A stretch of 28,154 bases of DNA from a virus. Below are positions 12,049 through 28,154 of this stretch, piece after piece. The first letter of the stretch is position 1; each line of letters starts with the position of its first letter. The position numbers and the translations under genes are program-made. The notes under the pieces are model-generated. The model was not told where the DNA came from and did no database searches. It saw nothing but the letters and a program-made list of their open reading frames with translations. The stretch is taken from positions 1 to 28,154 of IMG/VR virus record IMGVR_UViG_3300028608_000064. One strand, 5' to 3'.

Positions 12049-12822
12049 CTACGGAGCTGCGATGGTCACCGAGGGATCGGTGGTGTAGCCCGTGCCGCCG
12101 TTGGTGACGTTCACTGCCGTCACGACGCCGTCCTGGACCACTGCGGTCGCAGCGGCACCCGTGCCGCCACCACCCGAGAAGGTCACAGCCGGAGCGGTGC
12201 TGTAGCCGGCGCCGCCGGAGACGACGGTCACCGCGGACACCGTGTTGCCGGTGCGGGAGGCCGTGGCCGTAGCGGTCGAGAGGATGACCGCCGGCGGGAT
12301 CCACTCAAACGGCCAGTCGTTCGAGCCGTGGTTGAGCGGGGTGACCTTCAGCGAGAGCTGGGCCAGGTTCTCCGTATCGGCGACAGCGAGGTCGTCGGAG
12401 CGGATGATCGAGACCTTGGGGGCGTAGATGCCCGCGGTGCTCTGGCCGTCATAGAAGACGACGAGCCAGGCAACCTCGGTCGGGACCGGGTTGGAGGGGA
12501 CGCGCACGCGGCCGTTGACAACGGCGGCGTTCGAGCCGTAGTAGAGCTTCAGGCCCGGAGCATCGAACTGGAGCAGGTTCATGATGAACGCCTCAGTGCG
12601 AGCGGCCACGGTCTGCCGCAGAGTCTTGTTCTGCAGCGAGCGAAGCGTGGTGGTTTCGCCACCTTCCGAGCTTGCGGACAGGATGTCCTGCACGGAGGTG
12701 TGGCCGACCTCGGTCCACGGCCCGGCCGGGTTGCGGAGGTCAGTGGGGATTGCAGTGCCGACAGGCGCCGTGTAGAAGTGGCCGGTTCCGACCTTCAGCA
12801 CGGCAGTGTTGTCGAGTGCCAT
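12049..12822 (-). CDS. Major tail protein
   Basis: A 257-residue tail-tube subunit, placed between the neck genes and the tail assembly chaperones. The first ~180 residues are the tube domain (MALDNTAVLKVGTGHFYTAP, then VGHTSVQDILSASSEGGETTTL). Residues ~186-257 are a separate Gly/Thr-rich beta domain (TVSAVTVVSGGAGYSTAPAV, SGGGGTGAAATAVV, GGTGYTTDPSVTIAAP) that probably projects from the tube surface. The same domain ends the major capsid protein, at about 61% identity by hand alignment. ATG at 12822 follows TAGGAG at good spacing. Two hairpins lie between it and the upstream gene. Confidence 0.92.
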   Translation of the reverse strand: MALDNTAVLKVGTGHFYTAPVGTAIPTDLRNPAGPWTEVGHTSVQDILSASSEGGETTTLRSLQNKTLRQTVAARTEAFIMNLLQFDAPGLKLYYGSNAAVVNGRVRVPSNPVPTEVAWLVVFYDGQSTAGIYAPKVSIIRSDDLAVADTENLAQLSLKVTPLNHGSNDWPFEWIPPAVILSTATATASRTGNTVSAVTVVSGGAGYSTAPAVTFSGGGGTGAAATAVVQDGVVTAVNVTNGGTGYTTDPSVTIAAP

Positions 12823-14618: not shown

Positions 14619-15968
14619 CTACGGGGCCGCGACGGTAACGGTCGGGTTCGAGGTGTAGCCGGTGCCCGCAGCCGTGACGGAGATCGCGGTGACCTGGCCG
14701 TTGGCGATGGTCGCAACAGCCGTTGCGCCAGTGCCGCCGCCGCCGGAGATGGTGACCGTCGGGGTGGAGGTGTAGCCGAAGCCCTGAGCGGTGACAGTGA
14801 TCGCGGAGACCGTGCTGCCGGAGCGGGTAGCCGTAGCCGTAGCAGCAGCCTTGGCGCCCGGGTAGTTGCCGCCGAGCGGGAAGGGCTCGCCCTGAGCAAC
14901 CGGGCCGGTGATCGGCTGCAGGTTGTAGGCCTTGGCCAGGAAGGAGCTGGCGGAACCGCCGGGGGTCGTGGTGGAGCCGTCGCCGGGCTTCTTTTCCACA
15001 GCAGAGCTGGTGTTGAGGACCAGCTTCACGCCACGGACGAAGTACTCGTCGGTGGAGACGATTTCGCGGCTGGAGCCGTCGAAGACCGCGAGGCGGTCCT
15101 TGACGTAGCTGTAGCCGGCGTAGCAGTCGAAGACGCTGCGGTCGGTCAGGTACGCGGTGTCGTAGTCCATGAGCCAGCGCAGAGCCCAGCCGCCGGCGGA
15201 AGCCGTCGAGCCGAAGGGCACGGACTGGGGGATGGAGGGAACGCCGGTGAAGACCAGGAAGCCCGAGGAGGCGTACATGTAGGCCTCGTCAGCGGGGATC
15301 TGGGTGCTGGACACGAACTGCACGCCGGCGATCACGCCGAGCTTGGCCGAGGTCAGCGCGTCGTCGCCGCGGGTCTGATCCTTCAGGAAGCGGTTGGACT
15401 TGAGGATCTGTTCCTCGAAGTCCACGCCGCACACGCAGTAGAGCGTGTCGTTCGGGGTGCGCATCAGGCGGAGGGCCTTCTTGGCGTCCACGACGGCGTT
15501 GTAGAACCGATCCTGGTTGGCAGGGTCGGTGGCCGCGACCTTGATGACGCGCTCGTAAGGCGCCTTCAGGATCTGGTTGAGCACGCCGTGCTCCAGGTAG
15601 GAGGCAATCGAGGAGGTCTGAGCCTCGATGATGTCGCCCCAGCCGTCCTGGAAGTCCCAGTCGCGCTGTTCGTCCGTCATCTTGATGGCGGAGTACGGAC
15701 GGTCAGCCGAGATGGTCACGGTCACGACCGTTTCCTGGTACTGGTCCGTGATGATGGGCTGGCTGCGGTCGTTGCGCGCGGTGTAGGTACGCACGGGGAC
15801 GGTGCCCTTGACGCGCTGGCTGATGGTATCGCCCGAGGACTTGAAGAAGGTCTTCATGTCGCTGCGCTTGGTTACCGTGTTGGAGATCGACAGCTGGTCG
15901 CTCAGCGCAGAAACTGCAGACTGGACGAGCACCGCCGGCTTCACCTTCAGGTGAGGGGTGTAAGACAT
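14619..15968 (-). CDS. Major capsid protein, P22 coat-like, with an extra C-terminal domain
   Basis: A 449-residue coat subunit. Residues 1 to ~340 look like the P22-type coat family (opening MSYTPHLKVKPAVLVQSAVS, then RVKGTVPVRTYTARNDRSQP and SAIKMTDEQRDWDFQDGW). It follows a scaffold gene directly, as in P22-type assembly, and no protease is evident. Residues ~345-377 are a Gly/Ser/Pro linker region, and residues 378-449 are a beta domain (TVTAQGFGYTSTPTVTISGG, then TAAGTGYTSNPTVTVAAP) shared with the major tail protein. That domain probably decorates the capsid surface. ATG at 15968 follows GAAAGGGAT. A strong terminator lies just upstream. Confidence 0.93.
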   Translation of the reverse strand: MSYTPHLKVKPAVLVQSAVSALSDQLSISNTVTKRSDMKTFFKSSGDTISQRVKGTVPVRTYTARNDRSQPIITDQYQETVVTVTISADRPYSAIKMTDEQRDWDFQDGWGDIIEAQTSSIASYLEHGVLNQILKAPYERVIKVAATDPANQDRFYNAVVDAKKALRLMRTPNDTLYCVCGVDFEEQILKSNRFLKDQTRGDDALTSAKLGVIAGVQFVSSTQIPADEAYMYASSGFLVFTGVPSIPQSVPFGSTASAGGWALRWLMDYDTAYLTDRSVFDCYAGYSYVKDRLAVFDGSSREIVSTDEYFVRGVKLVLNTSSAVEKKPGDGSTTTPGGSASSFLAKAYNLQPITGPVAQGEPFPLGGNYPGAKAAATATATRSGSTVSAITVTAQGFGYTSTPTVTISGGGGTGATAVATIANGQVTAISVTAAGTGYTSNPTVTVAAP

Positions 15969-21977: not shown

Positions 21978-22241
21978 CTAAGTGACGTAGAAATAGCCGC
22001 AGTCGATCACCGGGATCTCCTGGGCTGTGGTGACGCGCGCGAAGATCCGGTACGTCCCGCGGGCCAGGCCTGAGACCATGACTCCGGTGTTGCCTGCGAC
22101 GGTGGCGGCCGGCGTGAAAGTGACCGGCCGCTCTCCGTCCGGGACGACGGCGAACTCGAGCCCTGTGGTGACTACGAGCCCGTCGCGTGTGACTTTGACG
22201 GGCTGGAACTCGACGCTTTCGCGTGGGTAGGCGTTAGCCAA
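21978..22241 (-). CDS. Small Ig-like structural protein
   Basis: An 87-residue beta-rich protein (FQPVKVTRDGLVVTTGLEFA, then VPDGERPVTFTPA, then YRIFARVTTAQEIPVIDCGY) with the strand pattern of a single Ig-like or head-fibre-type domain. A longer ORF opening from 22376 lies over the upstream gene and has a Pro/Arg composition typical of a wrong frame. The TTG at 22241 has GGGAGGG five bases upstream and overlaps the upstream stop by 8 bases (CTTGGCTAA), the same arrangement as at the tape measure start. Placement after the repeat protein suggests a virion accessory protein. I do not recognise a specific family. Confidence 0.75.
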   Translation of the reverse strand: MANAYPRESVEFQPVKVTRDGLVVTTGLEFAVVPDGERPVTFTPAATVAGNTGVMVSGLARGTYRIFARVTTAQEIPVIDCGYFYVT

Positions 22242-24030
22242 GGGTTCCCTCCCAGCGGTTTGGTTTGATTGCGGTGTTTTCCGGGACGCCGAGGCGGCCG
22301 GAGTAGCGGCGGGACAGCATGGCCCCCGCCATCTCGTAGGGGGTGGCCGCGGAGCCGCCGGTTGCCCTGGGGGCACCGAATGCTTCCAGGCTGACGATGC
22401 CGGCGGGGCCGACGTGCAGCGCGACCTTGATCAGCACCGGCTGGCCGACGGCCTCTTGCGTTGCTATGCCGAGCGGGCCCGCGGTAAGTGAGGTATTGAT
22501 CGCCGGCGAGCCGAAGGTGGTCCCTCTGGAGGGCAGGTTGGCCGGCAAGGCCACCAGGACGTTCGTCTGCCTGGGCGTGCCGAAGGACTCGAGCGATGCG
22601 ATCCCCGAGGGACCGACCACGCGGTTGCCGATGACGTTCGGGGCGCCAAAGGCGCCGGCCGACGGGATTCCGGCGGGACTCAGCGTCTTGTTCAGATCCA
22701 CGACCGTCACCGACGGCGAGCCGAAGGCTGCGGCGCCGGCAATGCCCGGGGGAGCTACCGCCAGGGTGGCGGCCAGAGTCGGGGCTCCAAAGGACTCGGC
22801 CGATGGAATGCCGTCCGGACTGTAGGTCTTGGACGATGCGGCCCGCGGGACGCCGAACGCTTCCGCCGTCGGGATGCCCGCGGGGGAGGCTGTGACCGGC
22901 ATGGCTACAGACGGGGTGCCCATGGCCTGCGCGGATGCGATGCCCGAAGCGGACACGAACTGCGTGCTGGCGATGCTCGGCGCGCCGAAGGCCTGCGCCG
23001 ATGCCACGCCTGCGGGGGTGGCGGTGAGGTTGCCGGTCCTGGTCGGGGTGCCAAAGGCCTGAGCGCTGGCAATCCCCGACGGCGATGCCGTCAGGGTCGT
23101 GGTCGTCACCGGGGCGCCGAAGGCCTCGTCGGAGGCAACGCTTGCCGGGCTGGCGGGGAGTGCCGTGCCGATGGTCGGGGCGCCCATCGCCTGGCCGGAT
23201 GTGATTCCGGCCGGCTGGGCCGTCACCGTGGTCGAAACGCCAGGGGAGCCAAGCGTCTCAGCGGTGGGAACACCCCCGGGGAGGGTGACAAGAATGTTAG
23301 AGGCTACCGGGGTACCGAATGTCTCGCCGGTCCCGAAGCCCGCGGGGCTCACGGTCTGCGCCCCGCCGCCAGCGGCGGCTTCCTTCAGCGAGAACGAAAC
23401 GCCCATGGCGCCGGTAGTTGCGACGGCCGGGTTGGCCTGCCGGGTGCCGGTGGCGGAGCTGGGCGTAACCGCCTCGAAGGCGACCAGGTGGCCCGCGTTG
23501 GTCTGCGCCGTGGCCTTGCCGGAGGCCTCGGCGATTGCGGTCATCGTGCCCGAGAGCCCGGTGAACGGGGTCAGAAAGACGCCGTTGGTCTGGTTGCGGC
23601 CGTTGAACACGCAGACCAGCCAGCCGCTGGTCGGGGTGATCGTCGGCGCGGTCAGCGTGGTCGCGCCGGCGGCTGCCTGAGTGACGGTGGCAGCCACGTC
23701 CACGAACGTAGTCGCGTCCGCGCCCTGCACCCGGATGGGTGTGGCTGCAAAGCGACCGTTGCTGGTCGTGATGGCCGGGTTGGTATCTCCCGATACCCAC
23801 TTCCGGTAGAAGATTGCGAGCGCGTCGGAGGTGGATCCGTTGACGCTGTTTGTGGACGCGAGAATGTTCGTCCAGCCGGCGGGTGTCGTGATGACACCCG
23901 AGGACGCATTCAGGGAGGCAACGATGATCGTGTAGTCCCCGGCCGCGAGGCCGGCGGGCAGTGTGACGGTCGTGCTCGTGACGCTGCCGGTTGACTCAAC
24001 AGAAGTGCCGGCCGTGAATGTTATTGCCAC
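22234..24030 (-). CDS. Large virion-type protein with beta head and 15 tandem repeats
   Basis: A 598-residue protein. Residues 1-218 are a beta-sandwich-like domain (opening MAITFTAGTSVESTGSVTST, including LAAGDYTIIVASLNASSG and GWLVCVFNGRNQTNGVF) of a type found in phage minor tail or fibre proteins. Residues ~229-559 are 15 copies of a 22-residue unit, consensus PxGIxSxEAFGxPxV. Residues 560-598 form a basic tail (MLSRRYSGRLGVPENTAI). The regular Gly/Pro repeat suggests a long, stiff beta solenoid or spacer, such as a fibre shaft. The start is GTG at 24030 with CAGGAG nine bases upstream. It follows the secreted hydrolase gene and precedes the Ig-like gene. No enzymatic motif is visible. 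Confidence 0.8.
   Translation of the reverse strand: MAITFTAGTSVESTGSVTSTTVTLPAGLAAGDYTIIVASLNASSGVITTPAGWTNILASTNSVNGSTSDALAIFYRKWVSGDTNPAITTSNGRFAATPIRVQGADATTFVDVAATVTQAAAGATTLTAPTITPTSGWLVCVFNGRNQTNGVFLTPFTGLSGTMTAIAEASGKATAQTNAGHLVAFEAVTPSSATGTRQANPAVATTGAMGVSFSLKEAAAGGGAQTVSPAGFGTGETFGTPVASNILVTLPGGVPTAETLGSPGVSTTVTAQPAGITSGQAMGAPTIGTALPASPASVASDEAFGAPVTTTTLTASPSGIASAQAFGTPTRTGNLTATPAGVASAQAFGAPSIASTQFVSASGIASAQAMGTPSVAMPVTASPAGIPTAEAFGVPRAASSKTYSPDGIPSAESFGAPTLAATLAVAPPGIAGAAAFGSPSVTVVDLNKTLSPAGIPSAGAFGAPNVIGNRVVGPSGIASLESFGTPRQTNVLVALPANLPSRGTTFGSPAINTSLTAGPLGIATQEAVGQPVLIKVALHVGPAGIVSLEAFGAPRATGGSAATPYEMAGAMLSRRYSGRLGVPENTAIKPNRWEGTLG
22354..23346 (-). repeat. 15 tandem 22-residue (about 66-bp) repeats
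   Basis: The unit core reads GIxSxxAFGxP. Copies include GVASAQAFGAP, GIASAQAMGTP, GIPTAEAFGVP, GIPSAESFGAP and GIVSLEAFGAP. Spacing is 22 residues with occasional one- to three-residue insertions. DNA copies are diverged, so they are not a recent slippage product. Confidence 0.9.
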
Positions 24031-24063
24031 GGCCGGCCTCTCCTGTCTATGTCGTTTTTGGTG

Positions 24064-26283
24064 CTACTGGCGAGATCCGCTGTCGGTGTTCGCCATGTTG
24101 CCCGAGGTCGGAACGAAGTTCCACGAGTACGAGCCGTTGTCGTTCAGGCTCATGCGCAGGTGGCCCCACGAATCCGAGAACCGCTTCTCGATGTATGAAG
24201 GGTTGTCGAGGAATCCGCGCAGCGAGATGCCGCCAGTGGAAACCTGGAACTGCTGCATGCCATCGGCGACGCACTGGTCCGCGTTGTTCACGGGGCAGCT
24301 GCGCTCGTAGTTGTGCTGGCTGCCCGAGAGCAGGACCTTGACCCGGTTCTTCCAGAACACGTCGATCCACGGCTTGATTTCCGTCGAGCGCGTGTGCGAG
24401 CTGGTCTGCGAAGTGAAGTACGGATCATGCACGACCACGGCCAGGTGCTTGCCGGCAGCCTTGGCGGCTGCGAGGTTCGCATCCATCTCGGCGGTCATCG
24501 CATTGGCCCGGGCCACGTCGTAGCGCCATGCGTTGGACTGGGCGAACAGGATGTGCCAGTTGCCCTTGTCGATGGAGTACCATTCCTGGTTGGTCTGGAA
24601 CGTGCCAGCGGGATTCGGGCCCTGACGGGTCGGATCGGTGCTGGTTGCACTCTTTACGGTGTTGACACACCCGCCGTCCATGTAGTCATCCAGGTCCGTG
24701 TTCCGGCCCGGCTGGTAGTCATGGTTGGCCGCGGCAACCCAGTACGTCTTGTCCTTGAACGGTCCACCGTTCACGTCCCACTTGCTGTAGTGGTCGTTGG
24801 CAGGGTTCGACGTGCCTGACAGGCCGCAGTGGCCGATGCTGTACTGGAAGTCACCGAGACCGATGAAGTTGTCCAGTTCGCCCGAGTTGAGTGCCGCCTT
24901 GATGCTTGCAGCGTTCTTGCCCCAGGTGCCGTTCGGATCGGTGTGTCCGCTCGGGTTCATGTCGCCAACCGCGGCGAAGTCGAACGAGCCGCCAGTGGGA
25001 GGCGGCGGGGGCGGGGTGCCCGTACCTGCGGGGTACACGCGGACCCAGTCCACCCGCATTTCGGCGGCGCCGTCAGCAGTGGCATCGGGGAACCAGTCGA
25101 GCTGCAGGGTCTGGTGCATCGAGCCCGGGGGCTGGTGCGTCGGGTCGTTGTCCTCGAACCACTTCACGCCGTCGATGTAGCCGGTCATGCCGGCGGGGGA
25201 CCAGTCAACCGCGTAGTTGTGGAACTGGGTCACATCGACCGCCTTGCTGGCCGAGGTCCGGAGGTCGGAGCAGGAGTAGTGGTTGAAGAAATGCACGCTG
25301 GTGAAGCTGCCCGTGGTTTCGGCGTAGTCGATCTCGCCATCACAGGGCCAGCTCTCGGAGTCAGGCCACAGGATCGACACCATGTGGTACTCGTCGTCAC
25401 CGGAGGCCGCGATGCGGGCCTCCCAACGGCCGTACTTCTGGTTGGCGAACTTGGCGCTCATCCCGGCGGTGGTGCCGTCGGCCGTGCCGTTCATGACCAT
25501 CTTGGAGCCGTCCACGGAGACCTGCTGCGGGCTGCGCACGCCGTTGCCGGCGTGTCCCGCGCTGTTGTAGACGTTCCACTTGGCCGCGTCCGGAGCGCCG
25601 GTGTAGTTGAACTCATCGCCGGCTACGGGAGTTCCCCAGCCGAGCGTTGCAGCGGCCGTGGTGCCGTCGTTTGCCGGCGGGGGCGGAGGCGGGGTGCCCG
25701 CGTCCGGTTCGGTGACCACAACGAGCTGCGGAGCGGTGGACGCGCCACCTTCCTTGGACTTGAAGCCAACCCACTTCAGGGCGTTGGTCCCAAGCTTGAA
25801 GTTGGTGTAACCGCCGTCCGAGCCGACCCAGTCGGTCACGTCCCATTCGACCCAGGCGCCGGTGGCGAAATTGCCCTGCTTGGCAAGCCAGGTGCCCGCC
25901 GCGGGGGCGTTGTTCCAGGTGGCGCCGGCCTCGGTCCAGGTGCCTACGGTGCCGTAGACGTCAACGAACTCGGTGGCCGTGGTGGACGCTTCCGAATACG
26001 CACGGAGCTTTGCTGAGACAATGTGCTCGCCCGCAGGAATCGTCGCGTTGAACCGGAGCAGGCCGTTGCGCCAGATATTGGCGCGGCCCTCGGTAGACCA
26101 TCGAACGCTGGTGCCGAAGTTCTCCGTCGGCCTGTCGGCCTGGACGTAGGTGTCGGCCGTGGGTGCAAACGTCAGCGTCTGTGCTGCGCTCGCGGGAGTA
26201 ATGCTAAAAGGAGCGGCCGTGAAGGTCGCAGTTGCCAAGACGACGGCCCCCAGTACCGCCGTCACCTTAGCAGGTAGTCTCAT
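24064..26283 (-). CDS. Secreted three-domain protein: DNRLRE-like, GH16, metallophosphoesterase
   Basis: A 739-residue protein with a Sec signal peptide (residues 1-33; basic start, AVLGAVVLATATFTAA core, cleavage near ASA-AQ). Residues ~38-192 resemble DNRLRE/CBM-like domains (TADTYVQADRPTENFGTS, then LLRFNATIPAGEHIVSAKLR). After a Pro6 linker, residues ~215-418 form a GH16 beta-jelly-roll with the catalytic motif E317-I-D319-Y-A-E322 intact. After a second Pro6 linker, residues ~434-725 form a calcineurin-like phosphoesterase with D441, GD at 477-478, NHD at 520-522, H619 and SGSQHNYER. Its usual GHxH reads GSQH, so one metal ligand (S655) may be lost. GH16 enzymes cut beta-1,3/1,4-glucans or galactans. 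ATG at 26283 follows GAAAGG. A host-like secreted enzyme in a structural operon could be a virion depolymerase or an acquired cargo gene. Confidence 0.88.
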   Translation of the reverse strand: MRLPAKVTAVLGAVVLATATFTAAPFSITPASAAQTLTFAPTADTYVQADRPTENFGTSVRWSTEGRANIWRNGLLRFNATIPAGEHIVSAKLRAYSEASTTATEFVDVYGTVGTWTEAGATWNNAPAAGTWLAKQGNFATGAWVEWDVTDWVGSDGGYTNFKLGTNALKWVGFKSKEGGASTAPQLVVVTEPDAGTPPPPPPANDGTTAAATLGWGTPVAGDEFNYTGAPDAAKWNVYNSAGHAGNGVRSPQQVSVDGSKMVMNGTADGTTAGMSAKFANQKYGRWEARIAASGDDEYHMVSILWPDSESWPCDGEIDYAETTGSFTSVHFFNHYSCSDLRTSASKAVDVTQFHNYAVDWSPAGMTGYIDGVKWFEDNDPTHQPPGSMHQTLQLDWFPDATADGAAEMRVDWVRVYPAGTGTPPPPPPTGGSFDFAAVGDMNPSGHTDPNGTWGKNAASIKAALNSGELDNFIGLGDFQYSIGHCGLSGTSNPANDHYSKWDVNGGPFKDKTYWVAAANHDYQPGRNTDLDDYMDGGCVNTVKSATSTDPTRQGPNPAGTFQTNQEWYSIDKGNWHILFAQSNAWRYDVARANAMTAEMDANLAAAKAAGKHLAVVVHDPYFTSQTSSHTRSTEIKPWIDVFWKNRVKVLLSGSQHNYERSCPVNNADQCVADGMQQFQVSTGGISLRGFLDNPSYIEKRFSDSWGHLRMSLNDNGSYSWNFVPTSGNMANTDSGSRQ

Positions 26284-26297
26284 TGATGCCTTTCAGG

Positions 26298-26735
26298 CTA
26301 GAGCTTGAAGATGCGGTTTCCGCCGTTGTCCCAGGACACCGTCACGTCGCCGCCATTGGGTACGACCGGGAGATTGGTTCCCGTGTCGATGTAGGCGATG
26401 AGACGCTGCGCCGTAGCTGCAACGTCGGCACCGCCTGTCACTGCTGAGGCCTGGAAGACCAGCAGGTAGTGGTTCGCGGCGTTGGAGGCCACAGCAGAGA
26501 AGGTGATGTCGCCGGCGTCTGCCACACCGTTGGTGGACGTCTTCGACGCCAGGGCCGAGGAGGTCGCAGCCAGGGTGCCGGTCGCTGTGACGTCGGAGAC
26601 AAACTTGTGGGCGGCGTTGAAGGTGTAGCCCCGGACGAGGGCGACCTTGATAACGGCTCCGCCGGAGCCGGTGCCCCAGGCGATGGTGCCGTCGAGGAAG
26701 CCTTCGCGGCCTGGATCAAAGAGTGCAGATGCCAA
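26298..26735 (-). CDS. Small putative virion protein of unknown function
   Basis: A 145-residue beta-rich protein opening MASALFDPGREGFLDGTIAW, followed by VIKVALVRGYTFNAAHKFVS and ending GGDVTVSWDNGGNRIFKL. I know this general type as a conserved protein of actinophage structural regions but cannot name a function. The TTG at 26735 has AGGAG six bases upstream and no ATG lies nearby, so TTG is the real start. It has no signal peptide or membrane span, unlike the gene that follows. A head or tail accessory protein is the most likely role. Spacing to the next gene is 14 bases. Confidence 0.7.
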   Translation of the reverse strand: MASALFDPGREGFLDGTIAWGTGSGGAVIKVALVRGYTFNAAHKFVSDVTATGTLAATSSALASKTSTNGVADAGDITFSAVASNAANHYLLVFQASAVTGGADVAATAQRLIAYIDTGTNLPVVPNGGDVTVSWDNGGNRIFKL

Positions 26736-26744
26736 CGTTGGCTC

Positions 26745-27254
26745 CTAAATTGTGAGGGTGATCTTGTCGGGCTCGAACCAGCCCATTTGGTTGAAATAGA
26801 GGAGGAAGTCACCGGGGGAGACCATGCCCCACTGGGAGCGGAACAGGTCGATCCCGGCCTTCCTGAGGCAGAAATCAGCCATCTGGCTGCAGAACATCCG
26901 GTCCTGGTACGAAAAGGCCCGGGCGACAAAGTCGGGAACCCGGGTCTTGGTGATCAGCTCGAAGCCGATGAGCGCGAAGCCCAGGTAGTTGTACTCCTGG
27001 CGGTTCATGGAGGCTGCCAGGACCGCCATGTGCTGGCGCTGCTCGTCCGTGTAGTCGAACTGGGACCAGACAATCCAGGGGTAGTCCGTCATGGGGCGGA
27101 TGACCGCCCCTCCGGGCTCTGCGCTGACGACGTGAGTCTCGTTGATGGCGATGACGACGTGGTGCGCCCTGGACTGGGTAACCGTCTCGATTGCCCGGGA
27201 GATGAACTTCTGGCCGTCCAGCCGGAGGCCGATCTGGCCGGTGAGGCTAGTCAT
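26745..27254 (-). CDS. Permuted papain-like (YiiX/NlpC-P60 superfamily) protein
   Basis: A 169-residue protein with the pattern of circularly permuted NlpC/P60 enzymes: an N-terminal His (RAHHVVIAI, H31/H32), an acidic residue after it (VVSAEPGG, E46), a YNYLG segment at ~88-92, and the Cys in the second half (RMFCSQMADFCLRKAG, C122), followed by the SPGDFLLYF strand usual in this fold. Such enzymes act on amide or ester bonds in peptides or lipids. In phages their role is not settled, and wall peptide cleavage or an accessory lysis step are possible. No signal peptide or wall-binding domain is visible. The ATG at 27254 overlaps the upstream stop by 8 bases, so it is coupled to the small basic gene. 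Confidence 0.75.
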   Translation of the reverse strand: MTSLTGQIGLRLDGQKFISRAIETVTQSRAHHVVIAINETHVVSAEPGGAVIRPMTDYPWIVWSQFDYTDEQRQHMAVLAASMNRQEYNYLGFALIGFELITKTRVPDFVARAFSYQDRMFCSQMADFCLRKAGIDLFRSQWGMVSPGDFLLYFNQMGWFEPDKITLTI

Positions 27255-27719: not shown

Positions 27720-28154
27720 CTATGCGACCCGGATGAAGACCGGGCCAGAGCCGATGTTTGCTGAGAATGTGACCGTCTGGTTGCTGTTCCAGCCACCGTG
27801 GACGGCCACGCCGTTGCCGAGGTAGACCGCGATGTGGGCCAGGCCCATGCCGCCGTTGGCGTAGTAGATCAGGTCGCCTGGCAGCGCATCCGCGGCCGAG
27901 ACCTGGGAGCCCAGGGCGAAGTAGCTGATCGGCCAGCCGTGGTGGCTGATGCCCGCCGCCTTGAGGGCGTTGGTCACCAACATGGTGCAGTCCTGAGTGC
28001 GGCCCAGCTGCGACAGCGCCGAGTAGGCGATGATCGAGCCCTTGCTGGATGCGGCCGGGGCCGGAGCGGGTGTGGCCACCGCGGGGGCCGGCGCAGCTGG
28101 AGCTGCGTGCCGGGGCGCTGCCTGCTTGACCACGGGGGCCGGGCGCGCCGGGGG
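27720..28154 (-). CDS. Lysin C-terminal part: Pro/Ala linker plus NlpC/P60 peptidase, 5' truncated
   Basis: The reading frame is open to the window edge, so the true start is outside. The first ~35 visible residues are a Pro/Ala linker (PPARPAPVVKQAAPRHAAP onward), which is unlikely to begin a protein. The rest, ~105 residues, is an NlpC/P60 cysteine peptidase: catalytic Cys in TQDC (C49 counted from a GTG at 28133), His in GLAHIAVYLGN (H100), third polar His in AVHGGW (H112), and the PGDLIYY strand. Such domains cut D-Glu to diaminopimelate or related peptide bonds in peptidoglycan. The GTG at 28133 is a possible start but lacks a ribosome site. It may be the missing C-terminal half of the M23-SH3b lysin at the left end. 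Confidence 0.85.
   Translation of the reverse strand, partial: PPARPAPVVKQAAPRHAAPAAPAPAVATPAPAPAASSKGSIIAYSALSQLGRTQDCTMLVTNALKAAGISHHGWPISYFALGSQVSAADALPGDLIYYANGGMGLAHIAVYLGNGVAVHGGWNSNQTVTFSANIGSGPVFIRVA

Follow-up and report, generated by a model that had tools for sequence, protein, structure and literature searches.

In a metagenomic phage sequence, the gene at 24064..26283 on the minus strand encodes a secreted-type enzyme of three domains, and it stands beside the gene for a tail-like protein whose N-terminal domain, termed P0001, accompanies it in otherwise unrelated phages. The preferred interpretation, which is given roughly even odds (probability about 0.5), is that a secreted actinobacterial enzyme was captured, is shared among phages together with P0001, and would be made late in infection, exported by the Sec system and active outside the cell as a non-virion protein. 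The gene itself, its domains, its bacterial relatives, the cassette, an empty site in a close relative, purifying selection and the operon position argue for this interpretation; an atypical metal site, a lineage lacking the GH16 domain, the enzyme-less close relative and a GH16 tree without a single phage group argue against it. The window, meaning the whole stretch of DNA analyzed, is an entire 28,154-bp IMG/VR record without end repeats, and all window features given below lie on its minus strand.

Domain Architecture of the Enzyme

The open reading frame begins with ATG and encodes 739 amino acids, arranged from the N to the C terminus as a Sec-type signal peptide, a CBM96/DNRLRE domain, a Pro6 linker, a GH16 domain, a second Pro6 linker and a phosphoesterase domain. 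The signal peptide (residues 1–33; 26185..26283), identified by inspection, opens with the basic segment MRLPAK, continues into a hydrophobic stretch (best 12-residue hydropathy of 2.3) and ends in ASA followed by alanine, with cleavage likely after A31-S32-A33; the basic start, hydrophobic core and AxA cleavage site of a Sec signal are thus all present by sequence and hydropathy. The CBM96/DNRLRE domain (residues 36–190; 25714..26178) matches Pfam PF24517 (E 7e-27, 94.7 bits, cut-off 26) and NCBIfam NF033679 (E 3e-25, 89.3 bits, cut-off 34). In the available part of its description, the founding member of CBM96 binds alginate (PMC9971899). The Pro6 linkers, at residues 198–203 (25675..25692) and 424–429 (24997..25014), enclose the GH16 domain (residues 216–420; 25024..25638), which matches Pfam PF00722 (E 6e-10, 39.4 bits, cut-off 22) and, among several solved structures, laminarinase 3iln (E 2e-7). 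In the alignment with 3iln, the motif E317-I-D319-Y-A-E322 (25318..25335) falls over EIDIAE, leaving the catalytic E-x-D-x-x-E intact, and the domain is predicted to cut β-glucan. An AlphaFold model of the whole enzyme, built from an alignment of 13 sequences, has a pLDDT of 45. Chance is excluded as the origin of the architecture because independent proteins match the enzyme over its full length at 64–76% identity. The profiles, the 3iln alignment and the sequence bear out the signal peptide, DNRLRE-like domain, EIDYAE-bearing GH16 domain and Pro6 linkers proposed in the first-pass annotation of this DNA.

The Phosphoesterase Domain and Its Metal Site

The C-terminal domain (residues 430–739; 24064..24996) of the window protein has no match in Pfam, the Metallophos family included. 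A profile built from 11 homologues gives weak but significant matches to the plant diphosphonucleotide phosphatase 3zk4 (E 1e-4) and the purple acid phosphatase 1kbp (E 3e-4), and the motifs GDMN, GDFQY, NHD and HDP follow the family pattern of GD, GDxxY, NHD and H(D/E)P, with GSQHNYER at the place of GHxH. The putative metal ligands are D441, D478, Y481, N520, H521, H619 and H657. The place of the first histidine of the canonical GHxH is taken by S655, the motif reading GSQH, which leaves six of the seven canonical metal ligands in place; lacking the full set, the domain is called purple-acid-phosphatase-like. GSQH replaces GHxH in every homologue that bears the domain, whether from bacteria, phages or the more distant Micrococcaceae paralogues, so the serine is a property of the subfamily and not damage inflicted by the phage. 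A phosphatase function is predicted, with the atypical metal site as a caveat. The metallophosphoesterase assignment made earlier thus holds for the family relation to 3zk4 and 1kbp and falls short at one canonical metal-ligand histidine.

Operon Context and Probable Host

Nearly all genes of the window are on the minus strand and structural, encoding terminase, portal, MuF, scaffold, capsid, connectors, tail tube, chaperones, tape measure, Dit, minor tail and spike proteins, and are accompanied by HNH, NlpC/P60 and M23 genes. Genuine viral genes flank the enzyme on both sides, as seen from annotation and from co-linearity with the close relative G781, and the structural annotation of its neighbors agrees with the earlier placement of the gene inside a phage structural operon. 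The enzyme gene starts 14 nt past the previous stop codon and ends 33 nt ahead of the next start codon, and no promoter- or terminator-like site was recognized near it on its own strand. Directly upstream is a 145-residue PHROG 644 protein (26298..26735; E 1e-24); in the Mycobacterium phages McProf and Cosmo, PHROG 644 genes adjoin repeat minor tail genes with no enzyme between them. Downstream is a repeat-bearing tail-like protein of 598 residues (22234..24030), which matches the minor tail protein family PHROG 13352 (E 9e-33). Because of its position in the structural operon, the enzyme is predicted to be produced late, together with the late genes. Its codon-use distance to the phage structural genes is 0.095, as compared with 0.135–0.162 for bacterial homologues, which suggests long residence in the phage.

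The terminase, portal and capsid proteins are nearest to those of Streptomyces, Mycobacterium and Arthrobacter phages, all at less than 60% identity. Among isolated phages, the NlpC/P60 protein of G781 is matched only in four jumbo-sized Arthrobacter phages (81% in Atuin), and it has 45–68% matches in many Micrococcaceae genomes. On the basis of the phage matches, an Arthrobacter-like host is likely for the window phage. The NlpC/P60 protein upstream in the same operon (27720-28154; L045 2056-2970) contains a proline/alanine-rich linker; in G781, where it is present at full length, its N terminus includes a hydrophobic segment. From these sequence features, the protein is possibly another surface enzyme of host-like type. 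A 169-residue protein at 26745-27254 is weakly similar to PHROG 1128 and, below the NCBIfam cut-off, to YaeF-type permuted papain-like enzymes. The major capsid protein (14619-15968) and the major tail protein (12049-12822) each carry a glycine-rich C-terminal domain of the GGAGYSTAPAVTFSGGGGTGA type, about 75 residues long; this kind of domain has matches in many unrelated virion families as well.

A Cassette Common to Unrelated Phages and Its Empty Site

The pairing of the enzyme with P0001 was absent from the first-pass annotation and was revealed by comparison with the contigs G001 and G780. G001, an IMG/VR contig of 26,412 bp, encodes an enzyme 76% identical to that of the window and otherwise has no similarity to the window except for one M23-peptidase domain. 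Nucleotide similarity between the two (75%) runs from window position 26163, inside the enzyme gene, to 23375 and then stops, having covered roughly 220 codons at the start of the downstream gene; the common cassette is 2.8 kb. Further phages were found by searching with the P0001 domain. G780 and G783 represent one phage recovered from two metagenomes, in which a signal peptide, CBM96 and the phosphoesterase, without GH16, are followed by P0001. A scan with the phosphoesterase domain alone returned only G001, and G780 and G783 were added by an alignment search, so relatives are under-counted by single-sequence scans. In all three phage lineages, the enzyme lies directly upstream of P0001 and contains the signal peptide, CBM96 and the phosphoesterase.

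One lineage has no GH16, so β-glucan cleavage cannot be essential, and binding plus the phosphoesterase may be the core of the enzyme. That all three lineages keep CBM96 and the phosphoesterase, and not GH16, also fits a reading that we consider rather unlikely, in which the gene is an auxiliary metabolic gene whose exported product scavenges phosphate, and perhaps sugar, for phage replication, with the phosphoesterase selected and CBM96 and GH16 used only for targeting. The measured activity of the phage alkaline phosphatase PhoD22 (PMC10987575) makes such a role more plausible. The metal site is atypical for it, however, no phosphate regulon or uptake genes are among the annotated window genes, and the position in the structural operon points to late expression, when imported phosphate would help little.

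Among the parts of the enzyme, the signal peptide diverges most, yet it stays a signal peptide across the three lineages; those of the two phage relatives are divergent and equally good (hydropathies of 3.1 and 3.1). Virion proteins assemble in the cytoplasm, so retention of a cleavable Sec signal in three lineages suggests that the product probably leaves the cell, and export through Sec is predicted.

An empty site is seen in G781, a phage closely related to that of the window and ∼75% identical to it over some 23 kb. In G781, only 19 nt separate the PHROG 644 gene from P0001, as against a segment of 2,267 nt (24031..26297) in the window; the junction sequences and blastn show G781 to be co-linear with window positions 26747-26299 and 24033-23363. 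The enzyme is thus an optional gene, and gain by the window phage and loss by G781 both fit. The earlier suggestion of acquired cargo is consistent with this optional status and with the empty site in so close a co-linear relative. The same comparisons lead us to reject an assembly chimera, in which bacterial reads would have been fused to phage sequence. A chimera would account for the bacterial character of the gene and for its absence from isolated phages, but the junction between enzyme and P0001 is repeated in three further contigs from two metagenomes, both flanks in the window are co-linear with G781, and the phage copies have common features that bacterial copies lack.

The dN/dS values between the window and G001 are 0.15 for both GH16 and the phosphoesterase and 0.23 for CBM96; in the comparison of the window with G780, the phosphoesterase gives 0.17 and CBM96 gives 0.15. 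All are approximate, as synonymous sites are near saturation (dS of about 0.8-1.2). At the sequence level, the catalytic domains are under purifying selection between phages. This selection excludes a purely neutral passenger and thereby weighs against the view that the gene is lysogenic-conversion or hitchhiking cargo, which helps the bacterial host or is merely carried and does nothing for phage infection. That the bacterial homologues serve their own cells, that the gene is optional in the phage, and that in the virus contig L046 a P0001 domain without the enzyme lies upstream of an integrase gene all speak for cargo. In the window, however, no integrase was found, and the tight fit of the gene in a structural operon with no recognizable promoter of its own is unlike classic morons; we regard cargo of this kind as improbable.

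The P0001 Partner Domain

P0001 comprises the N-terminal 223 residues of the downstream gene (23362..24030) and is 72% identical in the copies adjoining the enzyme in G001 and G780. It is modeled as a β-sandwich with a pLDDT of 86. Comparison with solved structures gives no strong match (best Foldseek E of 0.009), and the best Z score, 5.8 to a lactococcal phage receptor-binding head, is at a level that is common. Among predicted viral structures, many phage proteins match, several of them named minor tail protein, and the best neighbors include many actinophage minor tail proteins with TM scores of about 0.5-0.77. Distant relatives of P0001 are C-terminal modules of large actinobacterial proteins. 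From these comparisons, P0001 is probably a surface-binding tail module. The parts C-terminal to it differ wholly among phages (window 22234-23361; L002; L042), the variants including GIPSAEAFG-type repeats, VRAQGSS repeats and a laminin/concanavalin-like stretch, differences that would be expected of swapped binding tips. A Micrococcaceae genome encodes a secreted protein (L041 292-2160) in which a canonical metallophosphoesterase precedes a P0001-like domain (37%), and this fusion is thus an independent physical link between phosphoesterase-type and P0001-type modules. It is possible, although we hold it only tentatively, that actinophages share a two-gene module in which a late exported enzyme and a tail adhesin domain directed at the same surface would act jointly on neighboring cells.

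The location of the gene among structural genes, beside a tail-like protein, could also indicate a virion-associated depolymerase, attached to the tail alongside the P0001 protein, where it would open the host surface at adsorption. The viral contig L003 (7179-9995) contains a CBM96/DNRLRE-like region within a Gp37-like tail protein, so this type of binding domain serves virion proteins too. A virion location is nevertheless unlikely: all three lineages have the Sec signal peptide, no tail-attachment domain was found in the enzyme with Pfam or PHROG, and G781 has the same tail genes without the enzyme.

Bacterial Relatives and Origin

Full-length relatives at 64–67% identity are encoded on the chromosomes of Arthrobacter, Pseudarthrobacter and Actinotalea. 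Full-length or partial versions occur in Arthrobacter, Pseudarthrobacter, Sinomonas and one Actinotalea, the partial ones comprising CBM plus GH16, GH16 plus phosphoesterase, or single domains. The bacterial loci are ordinary chromosomal, non-phage genes: no prophage location was found, the enzyme being the only window gene matched in those loci, and no plasmid with the full architecture was found. The Arthrobacter, Pseudarthrobacter and Actinotalea proteins (L010-L013, L016, L068) have the same domain order and catalytic motifs as the window enzyme, with a signal peptide (of lipobox type in some) and proline- or threonine-rich linkers. Unlike the window enzyme, these chromosomally encoded proteins are not followed by a P0001 domain. 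The gene is therefore of bacterial type, its nearest non-viral relatives being bacterial genes outside prophages, as anticipated when it was first described as a host-type secreted enzyme, and transfer would have run from bacterium to phage.

A search of 50,697 phage records found no copy of the protein, the one match being to the CBM part, in a Listeria phage, and the only PHROG match of the enzyme is 11333 (unknown function), through the CBM region. The proposals that the protein differs from typical virion proteins such as ordinary minor tail proteins, and that no described phage system is known to combine its three modules, hold against these collections, in which no homology to known virion proteins was found; a check for close homologues proven to be minor tail proteins in many phages likewise found none.

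The phosphoesterase subfamily is patchy, occurring in 8 of 245 Micrococcaceae genomes and in 2 of 200 genomes from the family to which the Actinotalea genome belongs, with one of these two matches weak. When the phosphoesterase domains are placed in a tree, those of the three phage lineages cluster together (91/88), close to Actinotalea. A tree of the GH16 domains does not resolve the phage copies as a single group, so a common origin of the entire protein is possible but not proven.

Proposed Role and Relation to Known Systems

In the preferred interpretation, actinophages would have captured the gene of a secreted actinobacterial enzyme, and otherwise unrelated phages would share it in one cassette with P0001. 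The gene would be transcribed along with the late structural genes, and the host Sec system would export the product, the signal being cleaved to leave a soluble, non-virion enzyme that works outside the cell. There, CBM96 would anchor the enzyme to polysaccharide, GH16 would cut a β-glucan-type chain, and the phosphoesterase would take phosphate groups off nearby polymers or nutrients, or release phosphate. The likely benefit would be a thinning of matrix or wall decorations around infected and neighboring cells, such that progeny could escape and adsorb. Activity, substrate and benefit to the phage are all predictions here, and teichoic acid, which the first-pass annotation named as an example, would be one candidate target.

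Viral GH16 genes and viral phosphatases are already known separately, and their combination here is a variant on a known theme. GH16 β-glucanase genes have been reported on soil virus genomes from mangrove soil (PMC6460857) and tundra soil (PMC10127799), which, like the window, place GH16 on a soil phage genome; these are annotations, and the available text of the two reports describes no signal peptide, CBM96-GH16-phosphoesterase fusion or phage-to-phage cassette. The soil viral chitosanase V-Csn (GH75), for which activity and a crystal structure have been shown, is likewise of polysaccharide-degrading type, whereas the activity of the window enzyme is predicted; V-Csn belongs to another family and has no phosphoesterase, and its report says nothing of a signal peptide or of secretion (PMC9485262). 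The phosphate-releasing PhoD and pyrophosphatases of terrestrial phages have been shown to be active and differ in being stand-alone enzymes of other phosphatase families, read as phosphorus-acquisition genes (PMC10987575). Kayvirus Tgl, as far as the available text describes it, is a phage enzyme exported by a bacterial secretion system that acts on the envelope; it is a peptidoglycan transglycosylase with a lytic role, whereas the window enzyme is predicted to be of polysaccharide/phosphoester type (PMC7150955). Tail-associated lysins, enzymes encoded by phage tail modules that act on teichoic acid or polysaccharide antigen, are tail-module proteins in the accessible part of their description (PMC10194240), whereas the window enzyme is optional and has a Sec signal peptide. 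In the literature searched, no phage with a CBM96-GH16-phosphoesterase fusion was found, nor was the pairing of this fusion with a tail-like module, its spread across phages or its empty site found described.

Phage enzymes that act on surface polymers are usually viewed as virion parts or lysins. If the preferred interpretation is true, phages would, in addition, modify the surroundings of the cell through free enzymes, by way of a captured secreted bacterial enzyme, and near relatives with and without the gene at this site would provide a natural comparison for the effect of the enzyme.
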